Of a stretch of 31,077 bases of DNA, positions 15,758 to 29,489 are shown piece after piece. A model generated the notes under the pieces. The model made no database searches and had not been told where the DNA came from. It worked only from the letters and a program-made list of their open reading frames with translations. Source of the stretch: a virus; the IMG/VR virus record IMGVR_UViG_3300006754_000078, positions 1-31,077 of that record. One strand, given 5' to 3'. The stretch's first letter is position 1; the number at the start of each line of letters is the position of its first letter. A program made the translations under genes and the position numbers.

Positions 15758-16690
15758 ATGGACAAAGTATTCTACAACAAATCTTCTCAGGACTCGCTTG
15801 GATGGAGCCCATCGTGGTTCGACTGTGAGTATAATGATGAAGAGTTAATTGCTGCTGTAAGAAAATGGCAGAAGAAAAATAATCTCACCGTAGATGGACT
15901 GATTGGTCCATCAACTTATCGTCGAATCTGGACGGAGCGAGAAGCTGAAATATCCAACTATGTTCCGTATTCTCCAGAAGAGTCGGAAGCTCAATGTCTG
16001 CAGAAAGATAAGTTCATCGTTCACAATGGGGAATTTATCAAGATAGACTGGAATAGAGTCATTCTCTGGGATGAGGAAGATGGATTAGAGGCAGCAGATA
16101 ATAGTTATTACAGCTATGCAGGAAAGCCAGACAGGAAGCCGACAATGTTTGTAAACCATTGGGATGTTTGTCTTTCTGCCGAATCGTGTGCTCAAGTGCT
16201 CGCCCAAAGAGGTATTTCTGTTCATTTTTGCATCGACAACGACGGAACCATCTATCAACTACTCGACACACAACACGGTGCCTGGCATGCTGGCAACGGC
16301 AGAGCTAATCACAAGTCAATAGGCGTCGAAATCAGCAACGCTTACTATCCCAAGTATCAAGACTGGTACGTTAAGAACGGATTCGGCGAACGCCCAATGC
16401 AAGACGGAGCATGGGTTCACGGTTGCAAGCTTGATCCATTTACCGATTTCTATCCGAGACAAAAACGAGCACTCAAAGCCCTTTGGGAAGCAATTCACCG
16501 TGGCGTTGGAATCCCTCTTGAAGTTCCGACAAAGGATGGAAAGCTGGTAACTGGCGTATGTTCAAAATCCGCTAAGGCAGAGTTCAAGGGGTTCGTTAAC
16601 CACTATAATCTGACAAAGAGGAAGATTGACTGCGCCGGATTGGATATTTTAGATATGATTAATGATGTCAAAGAGAAGACTGAAGACTAA
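15758..16690 (+). CDS. Endolysin: peptidoglycan-binding domain plus N-acetylmuramoyl-L-alanine amidase
   Basis: Degrades the cell wall at the end of infection by cutting between muramic acid and the stem peptide. Residues 26-57 form a PG_binding_1 domain (helices with FDCEYNDEELIAAVRKW and LTVDGLIGPSTYRRI). The amidase_2 core covers about 128-300: zinc ligands His134 (NHWD), His282 (VNHYN) and Cys292 (KIDCAG), with ISVHFCIDNDGTIYQL and GAWHAGNG between them, as in T7 lysozyme. At 310 residues there is no signal peptide, so a holin would be needed; one candidate is at 19510. AAGGAG precedes the ATG. N-terminal rather than C-terminal wall binding is common in phages of Gram-negative hosts. Confidence 0.92.
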   Translation: MDKVFYNKSSQDSLGWSPSWFDCEYNDEELIAAVRKWQKKNNLTVDGLIGPSTYRRIWTEREAEISNYVPYSPEESEAQCLQKDKFIVHNGEFIKIDWNRVILWDEEDGLEAADNSYYSYAGKPDRKPTMFVNHWDVCLSAESCAQVLAQRGISVHFCIDNDGTIYQLLDTQHGAWHAGNGRANHKSIGVEISNAYYPKYQDWYVKNGFGERPMQDGAWVHGCKLDPFTDFYPRQKRALKALWEAIHRGVGIPLEVPTKDGKLVTGVCSKSAKAEFKGFVNHYNLTKRKIDCAGLDILDMINDVKEKTED

Positions 16691-22109: not shown

Positions 22110-24488
22110 ATGAGCTACAACTTCATCGACGGCTGGCAACAGTTTGTTGGAGGACATCAAGAATCCAATCAGAGGAAGAGCATGAAAGATCTTCTCTGGG
22201 AACGTTCTGAAAATTGGAAAGTTGATCGCCTCATTTATGAACGCGCTTTACTTGAGGGCAGAAAAGAAGATGTCCTCAAAAAATACCCACAATATGCCAA
22301 CCAAATTGAGAACTATTTTACAGGAGAGAATGATCCGTCAGGAAATAATAAATATCTCTCCAAGATGGTGAAGCTGCTTCACACAGGACTTCAGAACTGG
22401 GAGAAGCGCATGGCAGTGGTAGACCAAGCGCCAGATGAAATTCAAAAAGGTGCGCAGGCGAACATCGAGGCAGAAAAAATAAAGATTGCCGTCCGCGACT
22501 TTCATAAACTAAACAAGTATATGCCCACCGCTCAAGGCGGAAGAGATCTTAACTCTTACAAATATCTTGGTGATATTAATCAAGCTCTCAACAACGCAGA
22601 AGCGGTTGCTAAAAGGAAAGAGTTGGAAAAAATTCACAAAGAAAAGGTCCGAGGAGACGCAGATAGAATTTATCAAGATAAGACAACTCTCGTCGTCCGC
22701 CCAAAATCAGAAGAAGCTTCCTGCTATTACGGACAAGGAACCCAGTGGTGCATCGCAGCAACAAACAGCCGCAACTATTGGGACGACTACGCAAACGATC
22801 AAGGCGCTGTATTCTTCTTCATCTTAGATAAAGACGCGCAACTAAGAGAAGCCGAAAGGGATAAAGTTGCTCTTGTATACGACACGAACCACGACGAATC
22901 CGAGTTCCCTATGGACGCCTACGACACGGTTGACGATCAACTTGATTCAGCCGATATTACTGGTTACTGGGACGATGCCTGGAGTGAGGAGAAGATTAGT
23001 GCTGTCTTCAACGCCATTCAGCAAAGTCTTAATGAAGATCCGCCCGAAGCAGGTGCTGACTTGTATGAGGCAGCAGAGGAGCTTCATGAATATGCCAATA
23101 GGGAGTTCGCGAATTCAGAGGCTGCTGGAAATATTGATGTTAGCATTGAAATAGATTATGAAGAAAATGGACTCCAAGCCCATGGAGTTATTTCTTATGT
23201 CTATGATCTTAACTATGATCGCCATTCTGAAGGTGCGATGGAAACTGCAATGGAAGGCTTCACTGATGACCCTGCAGAGGTGGAGGAAGCCATCGACGAA
23301 GTCTTATCCCAAGACTACAGTGAGGCTGAAGTAGATTTCGACGGCGAGAAGCTTTACATCGCTCTTAATATGGATTGTGAGGATTGCTACGGCGGACCCA
23401 CTCGCGAGGCAAGAGATAGAGCAGTGCAGGGTGCTCGCGATTTTATTGACGGATTGGTTTATAGCTACGCCGATAATTATGAAGCAGAGAAAGAAGAGCT
23501 TCGCAACACGCTCGTTAATCGAGAAGTCCTTGGACCCTCCGAGTGGGACATTAAGAAGAGAGATATAAAGGCTGAAGTAGAGGAACTACCACACTTTACA
23601 TCTCGCGACTTAGGCAACCTTATCCTGTTTGAGCTTGTTGAAGAAGGGACTTCAGCCCCTGTGATAGGAAAGCTTGATAACAAAAAAGAACAATTATATA
23701 CAATATTCGCGGCAAATTCTGTCACAGACAGGGGTTATAACTCTAAGAACTTTAACACCGCCCTCCGCACAAAATTAGACAAATACTTCAGCGAGGCAAA
23801 AGCCGCAGCCGCTCAACAAATGTCCCTTCCTCTTGGTGACAAGTATGAGAAACCAAAAGACGCTCCTTGGAATCCCTATTCCTTTGATATATACCTTGTT
23901 CCCGACATCAACGGAGAAACACGAATGAAACTACAATACCCTATCGGTGAGGGAAGAATGCCTTCTTATTATCTTGGGGCTTTGAAGTCTCTTAACGACA
24001 ACTACGATCAGATTGTTAAGTCAGCAAGGGAAATCTTTGAAGAGATGATGGGTAAACAAAAAGCCAAGGACGCGAAAAAGGACGAAGAGGTTTACAGCGG
24101 AAAAGAGGCAATGGAACTTATCAGATTAATTGATGGAGTCATCCTCGCTTCTGGAATGAACGACGAACGCCGAGAAGCAAACGTCGCGGTGCTTAAGTGG
24201 TTCCAAGAGAATTTTGAAAAGATGACACCAATCGAGCGAAAAGCTGCCACAACCTACTTGGTGAAAATGAGGCAACATATCACTAATGGAATTACTGGTC
24301 TTTATAAAATTGAGGACGACGCAGATGTTCCAATTAGGTTTGAATCTGAAGTAAAAAGTAAGATGGAAGACATTGGCGCAGCAATCAGGGCTCAGGGAAG
24401 ATACAAGTGGCTCGGCAAGCGAGACGACTTGGTTGAAAGCATTCGCAACAGAGTTCACCAAGTCATCGCCGAGCATCTAAAGAAGTGA
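22110..24488 (+). CDS. Large conserved phage protein, unknown function, with head-targeting-like N-terminus
   Basis: 792 residues. Its central region (about 203-250) has CYYGQGTQWCIAATNSRNY, then a strand FFFILDKDAQ and RDKVALVYD. I associate this combination with large-phage proteins of unknown function. Much of the protein is acidic alpha-helix with an Ala/Glu-rich middle (residues 310-420), then helical sections. The N-terminus YNFIDGWQQFVGG matches the next protein's LLLENWRKHINE in pattern (two hydrophobics, acid, Gly/Asn, Trp, two polar, x, Val/Ile, Gly/Asn), which resembles the removable head-targeting peptides of T4 internal proteins. GAGG lies upstream of the ATG. It may be a virion protein; no enzymatic motif is seen. 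Confidence 0.72.
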   Translation: MSYNFIDGWQQFVGGHQESNQRKSMKDLLWERSENWKVDRLIYERALLEGRKEDVLKKYPQYANQIENYFTGENDPSGNNKYLSKMVKLLHTGLQNWEKRMAVVDQAPDEIQKGAQANIEAEKIKIAVRDFHKLNKYMPTAQGGRDLNSYKYLGDINQALNNAEAVAKRKELEKIHKEKVRGDADRIYQDKTTLVVRPKSEEASCYYGQGTQWCIAATNSRNYWDDYANDQGAVFFFILDKDAQLREAERDKVALVYDTNHDESEFPMDAYDTVDDQLDSADITGYWDDAWSEEKISAVFNAIQQSLNEDPPEAGADLYEAAEELHEYANREFANSEAAGNIDVSIEIDYEENGLQAHGVISYVYDLNYDRHSEGAMETAMEGFTDDPAEVEEAIDEVLSQDYSEAEVDFDGEKLYIALNMDCEDCYGGPTREARDRAVQGARDFIDGLVYSYADNYEAEKEELRNTLVNREVLGPSEWDIKKRDIKAEVEELPHFTSRDLGNLILFELVEEGTSAPVIGKLDNKKEQLYTIFAANSVTDRGYNSKNFNTALRTKLDKYFSEAKAAAAQQMSLPLGDKYEKPKDAPWNPYSFDIYLVPDINGETRMKLQYPIGEGRMPSYYLGALKSLNDNYDQIVKSAREIFEEMMGKQKAKDAKKDEEVYSGKEAMELIRLIDGVILASGMNDERREANVAVLKWFQENFEKMTPIERKAATTYLVKMRQHITNGITGLYKIEDDADVPIRFESEVKSKMEDIGAAIRAQGRYKWLGKRDDLVESIRNRVHQVIAEHLKK

Positions 24489-25558
24489 AACTCCTACTTG
24501 AAAATTGGCGAAAGCACATAAACGAAGTAACCACTCTCGAACCAGAAGTGAAACAAGGATTCAGGAAAGCTATTGTAGACTCCAACTTCTGGAAACATCC
24601 ACACGAAGAGTATGATGTCGTTGACTCTACATCGATCAAGATGCCAGACGGATCTTACGCAGGAGAGACACCTGCTTCCGTAGCGCTCGCCGAATACCTG
24701 AACGCCACGGCACAGGAACTCGGAACAGACTTGTTCTTCGTCGTAACCGTCGAGAAGGGTGACGGATATGTTTTGAGAGACGGCGATGCGAACTATCCGA
24801 ACAACTGGCTTATGGGAGCAGAGTTCAATGGTCCAAACCCCAGCAACGGAAAGAACTTGATAATCATTGAACTCCGTCCGCTTGAAGAGGACTTCGAAAT
24901 ATCAGTTGTCGATCCAAAACAATTAGTAAACCTCATATCCCAAGTCGTAAATCACGAAATGGTTCACTACTGGCAGATGAAGAAGCAAGCAGAATCAAAA
25001 GGATTGAGCGACGAAGAGGCATGGGAAGAATTACTATGCGATCCAGAACAAGTTCCAGTCGGCGCATCACAAGAAGGTAGAGATGAGTGGGACCAACGCT
25101 GCGGCAGAGCACCACCAGAGGATCATCACGGAAAGGAAGTATATGTAACGAGACACGGAGAGATAGACGCCTACGCTCACGAGGCAGCAGAACAACTATT
25201 GACATACATGTCGCCAGAAGCAGTCATTCGCCACCTTAGAACAAGCAAAGGAATTCGCTGGGCAGCACAACAGAGTTCAGCAGTCCAACTATTTATGGAC
25301 ACTTTAGCCCGAGACTCAAAAGAGATAAGAAAGTTCTGGACAAAACTCTACACTCAGATACAACAGCAGAGTCAAGAGTTGTCCGAAGACTCAGACTTCC
25401 AAAAGAACATGAAGAAAAACCTCCCAAAAGAACTTGACTTCCTGCTGAACAAGGGAGCGAATAATAAGAAAGAGGGACCGGGAATAAAGAATCCAAAGAA
25501 ACCTAAATTTAAGAGTGCCCCACCGGGAGCACCTTTTGGAGAGGGAAAAGATGATTAG
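24485..25558 (+). CDS. Putative zinc metalloprotease (zincin, HExxH), head-targeting-like N-terminus
   Basis: 357 residues. HEMVH at 157-161 is the HExxH zinc motif (His157, Glu158, His161), with Glu226 or Glu233 in RHGEIDAYAHEAAEQLL as the likely third ligand. The zone just before, LVNLISQVVN, is the hydrophobic helix that usually precedes this site. The N-terminus MKLLLENWRKHINE ends in I-x-Glu, the cleavage style of T4 head-maturation targets, and matches the preceding protein, suggesting both are packaged in the head. The C-terminus is Lys/Gly/Pro-rich and disordered. It overlaps the previous gene as GTGA and the next by eight bases. It may be a virion protease acting in head maturation or delivered to the host (inference). 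Confidence 0.75.
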   Translation: MKLLLENWRKHINEVTTLEPEVKQGFRKAIVDSNFWKHPHEEYDVVDSTSIKMPDGSYAGETPASVALAEYLNATAQELGTDLFFVVTVEKGDGYVLRDGDANYPNNWLMGAEFNGPNPSNGKNLIIIELRPLEEDFEISVVDPKQLVNLISQVVNHEMVHYWQMKKQAESKGLSDEEAWEELLCDPEQVPVGASQEGRDEWDQRCGRAPPEDHHGKEVYVTRHGEIDAYAHEAAEQLLTYMSPEAVIRHLRTSKGIRWAAQQSSAVQLFMDTLARDSKEIRKFWTKLYTQIQQQSQELSEDSDFQKNMKKNLPKELDFLLNKGANNKKEGPGIKNPKKPKFKSAPPGAPFGEGKDD

Positions 25559-25760
25559 AAAGTATGGAATGGTAGCAGTGTATTTGCTGGCGATAATATT
25601 TATCCTCACATCGTGCCCCAAGAAAGAGGTTGCAAGAATCTCAGAAACAATAGCTCCCGAGCCTCTACCAGACATAGATGATGAAGGTATTTCAAGAAGC
25701 GATCTGAGCGACACAGCCCTTCCCTCTATTGATACAGGCGTGCAGGCGGAAAACCAATAA
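25551..25760 (+). CDS. Small lipoprotein
   Basis: 69 residues. The N-terminal segment MIRKYGMVAVYLLAIIFILTSC has a basic start, a hydrophobic core, and LTSC as lipobox with Cys22. The remaining 47 residues are Pro/acid-rich and probably extended. The ATG at 25551 is preceded by GGAGAGGG and overlaps the previous stop by eight bases. Size and composition fit an outer-membrane spanin of the Rz1 kind, but no partner inner spanin is clear. It opens the envelope cassette at 25551-28561. Confidence 0.75.
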   Translation: MIRKYGMVAVYLLAIIFILTSCPKKEVARISETIAPEPLPDIDDEGISRSDLSDTALPSIDTGVQAENQ

Positions 25761-25812
25761 AAAAGTGCTTTAGAACTTCCCCACCATATATACTTTAGGG
25801 AGGTGAGGTTCT

Positions 25813-26634
25813 ATGACTTATCGTTTAGTGGGAGTATTAGTATTATTATTTGGAGGTATTTTCGCTTGCGGAGACGCCCAAATTCTATCGGAACAGTGCT
25901 CACAGTCAGTTACCGCACCGACTGAGCAATCGACACCTGAAGTGTCTCAATTGATTGCTCCCACCGAAGTTTCAGCCGCTACTCGAAAGATGAAGAGAAC
26001 GGCAGCAAAGACTCGTCTTGCATCTGTGGAAGTCCACAATCTTGAGCGAGGCGTGAGAGGGACAGGAACTTACTATCTCCATGATGGTCATCACATTGTG
26101 ATAACTGCTGCACATGTTGTAGACGGCGGAGCAGAAGTAGTGATGGTATCAACCCCGAAAGGCGAGCCAATGCCAGCATTGATTCTTGCTTTTGATAACA
26201 GGGGTTCGCACGACTATTCTGTATTGCTCCTCCAAGAGCCTCTTCAGACAAGAACTCCAATGGATTTGAAAGTATACTCTGGAGACAGAGATTCTTTGAT
26301 TGGCGAAAATGTAGTCTATACTGGAAATCCAGGTCATCACAAGCAGCTTACAATTCAAGGGACAATCAGTGGATTCGCAAATGATGGAAGCATCGTGTTA
26401 CAGTCCTATGCGTGGGGCGGAGCCTCTGGCTCATCCGTATTCGACAGCCGAGGAAATTTGGTAGGAATTCTTAAGGCAATTGATGTTAATCGCAACAGCC
26501 TCTCTCCATACCCCCAGCTTAATGAAAATGTTGTTTGGTTGTCACCACCCAGCAGTGTAGATTTGGAAGGACTGACAAAGATGCTTGAGATATTTACTTT
26601 GATGCAAGAACTTCAAGGAGTCGAGGTGAGATAA
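25813..26634 (+). CDS. Secreted trypsin-like serine protease, predicted lipoprotein
   Basis: 273 residues. A hydrophobic N-terminus with possible lipobox IFAC (Cys19) suggests export and lipid attachment. The catalytic triad is visible: His101 in ITAAHVV, Asp134 in GSHDYSVLLL, Ser205 in GGASGSSVF (oxyanion loop GxSGS). Residues 20-65 are a Ser/Thr/Pro-rich linker. This is the layout of a chymotrypsin-fold (S1/DegP-like) protease, here without a PDZ domain. It is set between the small lipoprotein and the VWA lipoprotein, with a GGGAGGTGAGG ribosome site before its ATG. It probably acts in the periplasm or at the outer membrane, on a host or phage protein (inference). Confidence 0.85.
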   Translation: MTYRLVGVLVLLFGGIFACGDAQILSEQCSQSVTAPTEQSTPEVSQLIAPTEVSAATRKMKRTAAKTRLASVEVHNLERGVRGTGTYYLHDGHHIVITAAHVVDGGAEVVMVSTPKGEPMPALILAFDNRGSHDYSVLLLQEPLQTRTPMDLKVYSGDRDSLIGENVVYTGNPGHHKQLTIQGTISGFANDGSIVLQSYAWGGASGSSVFDSRGNLVGILKAIDVNRNSLSPYPQLNENVVWLSPPSSVDLEGLTKMLEIFTLMQELQGVEVR

Positions 26635-27612
26635 ATGTTCAAACATGTCTGTCAATTGTTGTTTCTCACGTTAATGGCGGTTTCTTGTGGACCGGACTAC
26701 GGAATCATTGGCGAACATGAGACGAAAATAATCGTTGTCGAAGTTCCCGGAGACGATGCTGACACTCTCAAGGGGAAGATATGGGTGGACTCCTTTGATC
26801 AACCTTCGTCTGTAAATGGCGTGGATATTCTCTGGGTTATTGATACTTCTTGTTCGATGGTAAACAACGAACCGGAGCTTCTACTTGGAATTGATACAAT
26901 GATGAATTCTCTTCCCCAAACCGGCTGGAGACTGAACATGATATCCAACGATCCGCTCAAGGTTATACAAGATCAGCAATTCCCGCTCGTCCCTGGTGAC
27001 TCCGCTCAAGATGCAAAAGACATGTATGACAATATAAATCGAGGACATTTAGAAGAAGGTTTCGATGCACTAAGGACGTACATGACAGGAAATACATACG
27101 CCCCAACTTGGATGAGGAACGACGCCGCACTCCTTGTTGTATTTGTGTCCGATGAAGAAGATCAAAGCAACCAGACTGTCGCAGAGTTTACCTCTTGGTA
27201 TTCCTCTATACGTCCCAGTGTCTTCCTTGCAAGTATAGTTCATTTGGATCCTGCAGACTCTCTATGTCATGTTAATCCATATTATGATACAGCATATAAT
27301 TCCATCGATGCGACAAATCACTTTGGAGGAATCATTGTTGATATCTGTTCTAAAGATTGGAGCGCAGGCGTTGCCGATGCGGCAGTCCAAATCAAGCCCT
27401 TTGAGTGGTATGAGTTAAGCTATGTTCCCTCCAACGCAGAATCAATACGAGTATTTCTTGATGGAGTTCCTAATAATGATTGGCACTATGAGTCGGCAGA
27501 TAATACTGTCTACTTTGATGTCGTCCCAGAGGCGACAGTGCATGTTGAAATAGCATATCTATATTTGCCGTGGGAACCGGAGCCTGTTGCAAGACCTAAT
27601 CCATTTAATTAG
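26635..27612 (+). CDS. Lipoprotein with von Willebrand factor A-like domain
   Basis: 325 residues. The signal ends in lipobox AVSC (Cys18). DILWVIDTSCSM (64-75) contains the MIDAS metal-site motif D-x-S-x-S (Asp70, Ser72, Ser74), and SDEED (172-176) follows a hydrophobic strand where VWA domains have a further MIDAS Asp. The C-terminal 80 residues (WYELSYVPSNAESIRVFLDG onward, in pieces) form a beta-sandwich-like end. VWA domains bind proteins in a metal-dependent way, so this may hold a partner at the cell envelope. It starts at the codon after the protease stop, so the two are co-translated and may be partners (inference). Confidence 0.78.
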   Translation: MFKHVCQLLFLTLMAVSCGPDYGIIGEHETKIIVVEVPGDDADTLKGKIWVDSFDQPSSVNGVDILWVIDTSCSMVNNEPELLLGIDTMMNSLPQTGWRLNMISNDPLKVIQDQQFPLVPGDSAQDAKDMYDNINRGHLEEGFDALRTYMTGNTYAPTWMRNDAALLVVFVSDEEDQSNQTVAEFTSWYSSIRPSVFLASIVHLDPADSLCHVNPYYDTAYNSIDATNHFGGIIVDICSKDWSAGVADAAVQIKPFEWYELSYVPSNAESIRVFLDGVPNNDWHYESADNTVYFDVVPEATVHVEIAYLYLPWEPEPVARPNPFN

Positions 27613-27627
27613 AAGAGGAGTCAGAAA

Positions 27628-27858
27628 ATGGATGAGGAAAGCCACCCACATTTAAGATTGATCGACAGCAATAAGCCACTCAATCAACTATCTGAATCTG
27701 ACTTACACCAATATAATCACGATGACGAAGAGTATAACTATGAACTTGGAATGAGCAAGAGAGACGTTAAATTGCTTGTCATTTCTGCTGCGCTCTTAGG
27801 CATCCTTGCCGGAGTCATCGCCGTGGGTGCATTTGGAGTAATAGCAGTGCTATGGTAG
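27628..27858 (+). CDS. Small tail-anchored membrane protein
   Basis: 76 residues: an acidic, polar N-terminal 45 residues (cytoplasmic or exposed) and one C-terminal membrane helix (VKLLVISAALLGILAGVIAV, about 47-66, then a few hydrophobic residues). GAGGAG lies eight bases before the ATG. There is no recognised family. It overlaps the next gene by seven bases and follows the VWA gene, so it belongs to the envelope cassette; a holin-like or anchoring function is possible but not shown. Confidence 0.68.
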   Translation: MDEESHPHLRLIDSNKPLNQLSESDLHQYNHDDEEYNYELGMSKRDVKLLVISAALLGILAGVIAVGAFGVIAVLW

Positions 27859-28121
27859 ATTTCGACGAGATGAGGAAGTGGAACAACAGGTGTCCGAAGT
27901 GCAGGGCTTCCATCCATTTTAGATTATACAGCGGCACCCTCGGGGCAACCGCCCCCGCCAAATGCGGAAGAAATGTTAGCTGTTCTCGCATTCTTTCAAG
28001 AGCAGAGGTGAGAGCAGGCACGGTGGAAGTTTGTGACTGGAGAGGGTACGCAGTTCGAATGTGGGATGGCAGTGTTCGATTTAAAAATGAAGATGGAAGG
28101 TTTTTGTTCGAATGGCGATAA
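27852..28121 (+). CDS. Small zinc-finger-like protein, unknown function
   Basis: 89 residues. RCPKCRA near the N-terminus gives C-x2-C, and a further Cys pair lies at KCGRNVSCSR, so four Cys could bind one zinc. The remaining chain is beta-rich (TVEVCDWRGYAVRMWDG). The start ATG overlaps the previous stop region (ATGGTAG). The end overlaps the lipoprotein gene by ten bases. It carries no signal peptide, so it is a cytoplasmic member of this operon. Confidence 0.62.
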   Translation: MVDFDEMRKWNNRCPKCRASIHFRLYSGTLGATAPAKCGRNVSCSRILSRAEVRAGTVEVCDWRGYAVRMWDGSVRFKNEDGRFLFEWR

Positions 28122-28561
28122 TATTAACATTGATCTCCTTGCTTGTGTCCTGTATTCCTGCCGACACCGCGCCCGCTGATGTTGCCAATGAAATTCATTC
28201 GAGCATTTTCACAAACAAATGGTGGGAAGTAGTCAGCGGTCCTCCTGTGGATGAAATCTATGATGCTTGTTTTATGCTTCATGAAGTTGATTACGATGGA
28301 GGAACTCTGATAAAGTTTGAAGAAGGCGAAGAGTGGCCCTATTTTTCATATCAATCCAAGTGGGAATATACAGAAGATGAAGATATTTACCTAATTGAAG
28401 GAGAATATGAGGTGGAAATAACGCAAAAAGGCAATAGATGCTGGAATATTGAATACAGCATCTATGATGCAGTCGCCTGCGCGTGCTCTCTTGATGCGAC
28501 GGCTGTGGCACCGTACCTGGAGTGGGCAGCCTCCACCTCTGAGTCGTCCGAAGAAACTTGA
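28112..28561 (+). CDS. Predicted lipoprotein, unknown function
   Basis: 149 residues. A very short hydrophobic N-terminus (MAIILTLISLLVSC) ends in LVSC with Cys14. It lacks the usual basic residues at the start, and the frame upstream has no other start codon, so this export signal is less sure than those at 25551 and 26635. The rest is acidic and soluble (WWEVV, FMLHEVDYDGG, several Cys near the end, CWNIEYSIYDAVACAC), suggesting a disulfide-bonded periplasmic domain. It overlaps the previous gene by ten bases and is the last member of the envelope cassette. Confidence 0.62.
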   Translation: MAIILTLISLLVSCIPADTAPADVANEIHSSIFTNKWWEVVSGPPVDEIYDACFMLHEVDYDGGTLIKFEEGEEWPYFSYQSKWEYTEDEDIYLIEGEYEVEITQKGNRCWNIEYSIYDAVACACSLDATAVAPYLEWAASTSESSEET

Positions 28562-28863: not shown

Positions 28864-29067
28864 ATGAAATTCATTGTAAATTTACTAAATCCCTATAATA
28901 GAATAAGAGAACTGCAAGAGGAGAACATTAGGATGAAAGAGGAATTGATATCCCTTCGGGACGAGAACGGGAGTCTTTGGGACATGCTGGAAGAGATAAA
29001 AGAAGCGGAGAACGATGCAATTGAGAGTCTTGCTGTATTCTCCTCCAAGCCCATCGGAGAGGCTTGA
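28864..29067 (+). CDS. Small coiled-coil protein, unknown function
   Basis: 67 residues, mostly one long amphipathic helix (RELQEENIRMKEELISLRDE) typical of a coiled coil, followed by an acidic segment. No family recognised. The start at 28864 is set by GAGG eight bases before; a longer frame to 28828 has no site and lies inside the previous gene. It overlaps the next start (TGATG, 29065-29069), so it is translated with the cupin gene. Confidence 0.58.
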   Translation: MKFIVNLLNPYNRIRELQEENIRMKEELISLRDENGSLWDMLEEIKEAENDAIESLAVFSSKPIGEA

Positions 29068-29489
29068 TGTCAACGATGAAAATAACTAAGCATGTTAAGA
29101 GTTCTTGGGTATCAAAGTCTAAAATAGATGAAATGCCGTGGGGACATGAGGTTATCTGGTCCGCACTCCCTTCCGTTCGTGGAAAAATACTCTATATGAA
29201 GGAGGGTTCCCGAAATAGCTTGAAGTTAAATGTGCTGAAGGATGAGTGTCTATTTGTTCTTGCCGGCACAGTCGAAGCGGAATATGGAACAGAGCTATCA
29301 TTAAAGGATCCAGTGCAATATCCATTTGAAAGTCGAGTACTCTCCACCGGAGATGCTTTGAATGTTCAGTCAGGATGCCCCTATCGCCTCACTGCGATTA
29401 CTGACGTAAAGATAGTCGAAATTGGAAATTCCTCCAATTCAGACAGACAAGAAATGGTTCGAATCGAGGATGATTATGGAAGAGAATAA
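29067..29489 (+). CDS. Cupin-fold protein
   Basis: 140 residues. PWGHEVIWSAL (about 24-34), then RGKILYMKEG and LKLNVLKDECLFVLAGTVEAEYG, with GDALNVQSGCPYRLTAITDVKIVEIG near the end in pieces. This is the conserved cupin beta-barrel order seen in mannose-6-phosphate isomerase and related sugar enzymes. The metal ligands of the classic motif 1 are not clearly conserved (no HxH), so the protein may bind rather than convert a ligand. Start at 29067 overlaps the previous stop; GGAG lies seven bases upstream. Confidence 0.72.
   Translation: MSTMKITKHVKSSWVSKSKIDEMPWGHEVIWSALPSVRGKILYMKEGSRNSLKLNVLKDECLFVLAGTVEAEYGTELSLKDPVQYPFESRVLSTGDALNVQSGCPYRLTAITDVKIVEIGNSSNSDRQEMVRIEDDYGRE

Follow-up and report, generated by a model that had tools for sequence, protein, structure and literature searches.

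An exported protease and a MIDAS lipoprotein form a conserved gene pair in large T4-like phages and may trim the surface of the infected cell

Background

Do phages encode enzymes that reshape the envelope of the cell they infect? Most of what is known about how phages control the host surface comes from laboratory coliphages and their small lipoproteins that jam receptors. A different kind of locus occurs in IMG/VR virus record IMGVR_UViG_3300006754_000078, of which we analysed 31,077 nucleotides (positions 1 to 31,077, called the window below). An initial annotation, made from the letters of the window, described a six-gene envelope cassette at positions 25551-28561. Its core is a gene for a trypsin-like protease followed by a gene for a protein with a VWA domain and a predicted metal ion-dependent adhesion site (MIDAS). 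The initial annotation suggested that the pair could block superinfection, remove a receptor, cut an envelope defence or help lysis. We asked how far this gene pair extends among phages, whether its two products appear functional and exported, and what they might do. All six open reading frames (ORFs) are present, with the order and overlaps originally described (Table 1).

Linkage of the protease and VWA genes

In the window, the stop codon of the protease gene abuts the start codon of the VWA gene (gap 0). In relatives with the same order, the gap ranges from -8 to +25 nt. A profile search for the VWA protein found 41 IMG/VR viral contigs of up to 205 kb, and the protease directly adjoins the VWA gene in 17 of 42 VWA loci. 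Starting from the protease, a VWA relative lies within the fetched flank in 56 of 77 loci.

Clustering at 90% identity reduces the protease set to 66 clusters. More than half of these (37) have a VWA gene on the same strand within 250 bp, downstream in 17 cases and upstream in 20; in 7 clusters it is farther off or on the opposite strand. None of 53 cellular VWA loci has the protease within the fetched flanks. The protease is encoded in all five of the VWA-found genomes of at least 185 kb, and in several large genomes that lack adjacency it is located elsewhere in the genome. Among the larger protease contigs, 25 of 31 have a VWA relative, some of them distant.

Export signals

We scanned 46 tiled window ORFs with a lipobox pattern resembling PROSITE PS51257; its hits are pattern matches, and lipidation is predicted from them. 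The pattern occurs in exactly four ORFs, which are the same four of the six cassette genes that had been assigned lipobox export signals (motifs in Table 1). Over the fetched loci, the background is 34 of 704 ORFs (4.8%), with the protease-VWA family itself counted in. The initial annotation regarded this concentration as extraordinary for a phage. Within this phage group that is an overstatement, given that relatives hold further exported or lipobox-bearing genes.

The protease

The protease belongs to the Pfam family Trypsin_2 (PF13365; E = 4.8e-18, 66.7 bits against a curated cut-off of 27.6). The catalytic triad reported earlier (His101, Asp134 and Ser205) is intact and is invariant in 13 aligned sequences. 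Among solved structures, the best matches are of the DegP/HhoA type (E = 1e-5 to 1e-3). A Pfam search of the protease did not find a PDZ domain. We also considered membership in a defence system and rejected it, since the PADLOC matches (RT-Protease, LmuA) arise just through the trypsin fold.

Inspection by eye and pattern matching indicate that the protease is exported in the whole family, by means of a lipobox, a signal peptidase I-type signal or a membrane anchor. An export signal is found in 65 of the 66 clusters and is lipobox-like in 26 and of another kind in 39. The kind of signal follows gene order: a lipobox is usual where the protease is 5′ of the VWA gene, and a plain Sec signal where it is 3′. 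It is therefore export, and not lipidation, that is conserved.

The VWA protein

The VWA protein of the window has no hit in Pfam on its own. However, 17 of 30 family members match a Pfam VWA entry, the best with an E-value of 6.6e-5. An AlphaFold model based on a 30-sequence alignment (pLDDT 86.4) retrieves integrin I and beta-I domains in Foldseek (E = 1e-7 to 5e-5), and its TM-score against single I domains is ~0.6 when normalized by target length. All 65 phage VWA sequences keep the residues D70, S72 and S74 (DxSxS) as well as D173. A further invariant residue, the glutamate E140, occurs at the spacing where we would expect the threonine of a classical MIDAS, taking integrin alpha-M as the reference. 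The same glutamate is found in cellular relatives. The putative metal site retains DxSxS and D173 and departs from the classical MIDAS form at the expected threonine position.

The lipobox cysteine is invariant in 30 aligned members. Two other cysteines, Cys211 (61 of 65 phage sequences) and Cys238 (63 of 65), could form a disulfide. One subgroup has an unusually short signal, with 8-11 residues up to the cysteine. Very short putative lipoprotein signals of this length and without positive charge, e.g., MLLFLISC and MWFLLLAC, occur in the VWA proteins of L033, L034, L040 and L042-L044 and in the proteases of L117 and L118. Either non-standard upstream starts were overlooked, or the host tolerates unusually short signals.

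A second, longer type of phage VWA protein (about 530-610 aa) occurs in L218, L219 and L222-L226. It groups with Myxococcota-like proteins in the tree described below, and several genomes hold both types.

Selection and origin

Estimates of dN/dS are 0.02-0.11 for pairs of VWA genes and 0.05 for the one protease pair with an estimable dS; dS is saturated in several pairs, and estimates where it exceeds about 2 are rough. A tree of 111 VWA sequences places 57 from phages in a single supported set (100/99). Another eight from phages, mostly of the longer type, fall among the Myxococcota-like ones, with long branches flagged. The cellular relatives are mostly lipoproteins of Bacteriovoracia, Oligoflexia and Myxococcota and are 21-30% identical. 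Given the phage clade, the low dN/dS and the absence of the protease from the fetched flanks of all 53 cellular loci, the pair is either a combination made in phages or a very old acquisition, and not a recent remnant.

The carrier phages

The window has no end repeats. Its genes include those for a phage-type ribonucleotide reductase, a DnaE-type polymerase, GroEL and an endolysin (15758-16690). Of its 40 plus-strand ORFs, 24 are common to a 205-kb record (G008), in largely collinear order. G008 and seven other genomes of at least 160 kb encode the T4-type capsid protein gp23, and the prohead protease gp21 is found in six of the tested records, including all five VWA-found genomes of at least 185 kb. 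The window itself is a fragment without gp23 or gp21 genes, and the T4-like markers are found in its large relatives. The carriers are a widespread clade of large uncultured T4-like phages with genomes of about 160-205 kb.

A tblastn search of INPHARED with the protease and VWA proteins of the window and its relatives found zero matching phages. Members do occur in three bins of metagenome-assembled genomes (L054-L056), assigned to WOR-3, Marinimicrobia and Pelagibacter. We take these matches to be phage contigs that were co-binned, as the genes around them are the same ones as in the phages; a search for gp23 in the three assemblies did not find it. The Marinimicrobia and Pelagibacter bins are a hint of a marine habitat, although co-binning does not prove it, and we claim no host.

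Timing of expression

In many relatives, the module's first gene is preceded by a short element, about TAGTTACTAATAGG. Its core, TA[GT]TTACT, also occurs in genome G027 upstream of genes just after gp23 and of a tail-sheath-like gene, recognized by its N-terminus. The exact 9-mer TA(G/T)TTACT(A/T) is rare (13 copies in 8 genomes) and is possibly a late promoter of this phage clade. Examples are L009:9156, L034:9977, L243:13754, L247:16126 and L253:998; these and others lie 5′ of the module or of some structural genes. A role of ATAGTTAC as a genome-wide promoter is not supported, because its counts are not above those of shuffled controls; only its placement is suggestive. No enrichment of the T4 motif TATAAATA was found. 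Because the counts are small, the totals are not above controls and the copy in the window is weak, the element gives just a hint of late expression.

A second hint comes from the gene upstream of the cassette, which lies outside the pair. Its product has an N-terminal tag, whose general form, MKLLLENWRK(F/Y)(I/L)xE, is common to dozens of otherwise different proteins; the motif is enriched 43-fold at N-termini. The tag resembles T4 capsid-targeting sequences with gp21-type cleavage sites. The concept of a capsid-targeting sequence has been described (PMC3012670). The tagged proteins may be packaged in the head and injected. If the tag does target the capsid, the cassette would share its operon with a gene whose product is packaged in the head, again in keeping with late expression. 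Together, the promoter and neighbourhood evidence leans weakly toward late rather than early expression.

The tagged protein of the window also has the sequence HEMVH (HExxH) at residues 157-161, as in zinc metallopeptidases, and is possibly a head-packaged metalloprotease. The tag is also found at L164:3766-7154 and at many other loci; in L164, six tagged genes stand in a row right after the protease.

Flanking genes

The six genes are not kept together as one cassette: beyond close relatives, just the protease and VWA genes persist.

Table 1 Features in and around the protease-VWA gene pair, in window coordinates
Positions	Strand	Feature	Length	Properties
24485..25558	+	HExxH protein, upstream neighbour outside the pair		N-terminal tag MKLLLENWRKHINE; overlaps small lipoprotein gene
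25551..25760	+	Small lipoprotein	69 aa	Lipobox LTSC (Cys22 of the 69-aa form); lineage-specific
25785..25799	+	Weak copy of promoter-like element (CATATATACTTTAGG), possible promoter		Below scan threshold
25813..26634	+	Exported trypsin-like serine protease	273 aa	Lipobox IFAC, then G (Cys19); triad H101/D134/S205; module core
26635..27612	+	VWA/MIDAS protein, predicted lipid-anchored	325 aa	Lipobox AVSC (Cys18); D70/S72/S74, E140, D173; module core
27628..27858	+	Tail-anchored type protein	76 aa	C-terminal hydrophobic segment; close relatives only
27852..28121	+	CxxC-pair protein	89 aa	No export signal; close relatives only
28112..28561	+	Lipoprotein	149 aa	Lipobox LVSC (Cys14); short signal

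The small lipoprotein, whose start overlaps the end of the upstream gene, has no match outside near-identical contigs in a profile search. A possible positional counterpart occurs in L004 and L009 (L004:5454-5681). The tail-anchored type protein and the CxxC protein are confined to the window lineage and its nearest relatives, L009 and L054; in profile scans with the CxxC protein, L009 is the sole match beyond the window lineage. The latter protein falls below the cut-off of the NCBIfam model CxxC_VVA0879. Outside the window lineage, the final lipoprotein occurs in L009 only. Its signal lacks the usual K/R in the n-region, but the L009 homologue (49% identical) has a normal signal (MESRR...AAAC).

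Two observations concern genes near the module. Just 3′ of the cassette, positions 29064-29489 encode a small cupin protein that is similar to the PHROG cysteine dioxygenase (1.3e-11), and relatives of it are also found near the protease-VWA module in other phages. In L012, L014, L029 and L055, where the protease is not adjacent, a protein of 158-165 aa (MKISVAFYKGKGDWKNKIIRWWTKSPYSHAELVLP...) is encoded two genes upstream of the VWA gene and looks like a papain-like or NlpC/P60-type hydrolase.

Function of the module

We are highly confident in describing the pair as an exported, conserved protease-MIDAS module of phages. The sequences support this description: both proteins have predicted export signals, the active site and the metal site appear intact, the genes are linked and under purifying selection, and the context is that of phages. 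The best overall explanation, to which we would give slightly less than an even chance, is a two-gene envelope module in which one protein would dock on a target and the other would cut there. Under this explanation, the infected cell would produce both proteins and export them by the Sec route, with lipidation where a lipobox is present. In the outer membrane, the VWA protein would grip a target by means of its metal site. The protease would stay anchored next to it or be free in the periplasm and would cut the target or its neighbours, probably late in infection. Most likely, the benefit would be that surface proteins, the phage's own receptor among them, are removed or shed; progeny would then not be trapped on the infected cell or debris, and rival phages would be kept out. 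Weakening of the envelope at release would be a second possible use. Receptor removal is the most economical purpose because of the analogy with Llp of phage T5, which blocks rather than cuts, and we propose receptor or surface trimming as the function with somewhat less confidence than the module as a whole. We infer the physical partnership, the target, the late timing and the benefit.

Several results count against this explanation. In 22 of the 66 protease clusters, there is no VWA relative in the fetched flank. Lipidation of the protease is not conserved, and promoter-like sites are not above shuffled controls genome-wide, with a weak copy in the window. Placement in the inner or the outer membrane would depend on the sorting rule of the host. 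Since some clusters have no VWA gene nearby and in some genomes a long distance separates the two genes, they need not encode a strict two-part enzyme.

The same scattered genomes would fit a different division of labour, in which the VWA lipoprotein occludes a receptor, as in Llp/Cor-like exclusion, and the protease acts separately, e.g., in DegP-like quality control of exported phage proteins. Receptor-blocking phage lipoproteins do exist (PMC9586334), and the protease resembles DegP/HhoA-type domains. However, the strong adjacency, the tight gaps in either order, the late-leaning context and the lack of a detectable PDZ domain make this reading somewhat improbable. The late-leaning context instead suits an aid to lysis or release, where the exported protease would degrade envelope-linking proteins held by the VWA protein, such as peptidoglycan-associated lipoproteins, and act with the endolysin of the same window. 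We consider this unlikely, given that we identified no holin or spanin adjacent to the pair and that about 9 kb separate the module from the endolysin gene.

Removal of a host envelope defence, or adhesion of infected cells to other cells, seems to us a very unlikely role of the pair. The kinship to MIDAS adhesins points that way, and cassette proteins that are 50-62% identical beside a neighbour that is 92% identical would fit an arms race. On the other hand, the low dN/dS gives no overall sign of diversifying selection, a target for such activity is not known and the PADLOC matches reflect the trypsin fold only. Finally, same-superfamily VWA lipoproteins are common in Bacteriovoracia and Myxococcota, so the pair might be imagined as a bacterial remnant or a passive passenger without phage function. 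We give this idea almost no credence. The single supported set of 57 phage sequences, the purifying selection on the pair and its occurrence on many independent contigs in T4-like genomes contradict a decayed bacterial remnant.

Comparison with known systems

The initial annotation knew of no phage system with this make-up, and our searches agree: INPHARED has no match, and we found no paper in the open-access literature. Both domains are known, but as far as our searches show, their pairing as a conserved phage envelope module is undescribed in that literature. Like DegP/HhoA-type S1 proteases, the phage protease is an exported trypsin fold. Unlike them, it is a single domain without PDZ and represents a phage-specific family.

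Complement factor B combines a Mg-dependent VWA/MIDAS domain and a trypsin-like protease, which act together on a target bound to a surface. By analogy, the phage pair could be a split protease in which the MIDAS lipoprotein captures a specific surface protein and positions or activates the protease for selective surface shaving, through an adhesin fold akin to those of predatory bacteria, a scenario that we regard as quite unlikely. Factor B is one polypeptide and the phage pair is two genes, so the likeness is an analogy only, and a homologous assembly is not supported. VWA-MoxR conflict systems (PMC7159879) also have neighbouring vWA and trypsin-like components. They differ in having MoxR and VMAP-type parts, whereas both phage proteins are exported; no such partners are apparent among the neighbours listed near the pair, although no dedicated search was made.

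In domain layout, the phage VWA protein is like the Bdellovibrio proteins Bd0875 and Bd1483 (PMC11003981; NF052240), which share the N-terminal lipobox, a VWA/MIDAS domain with a small beta-rich part C-terminal to it, and a similar length. In Bdellovibrio, lipobox MIDAS proteins whose VWA is embedded in a beta-rich domain serve as adhesins at the surface, and the function of Bd0875 requires its MIDAS residues (PMC11003981). Phage members match the NCBIfam model NF052240 weakly (E = 5e-7 to 0.011), with 14.9 to 29.1 bits against a cut-off of 700 bits, below which the cellular homologues also fall. In contrast to the Bdellovibrio proteins, the phage VWA protein is phage-encoded, has a companion protease and gives no sign of a role in predation.

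Phage lipoproteins that inactivate receptors are known, e.g., Llp of T5, which blocks its receptor (PMC9586334). Like Llp and Cor (PMC9586334), the phage VWA protein is a phage-encoded lipoprotein whose predicted destination is the infected cell's envelope. Those two small proteins jam a TonB-dependent receptor, whereas the pair described here has a VWA fold with a predicted metal site and a protease predicted to be active. This exported protease and MIDAS lipoprotein are kept under strong purifying selection in widespread uncultured T4-like phages. If the pair does trim receptors or other parts of the surface, it would offer these phages an enzyme-based means of superinfection exclusion or of clean release.

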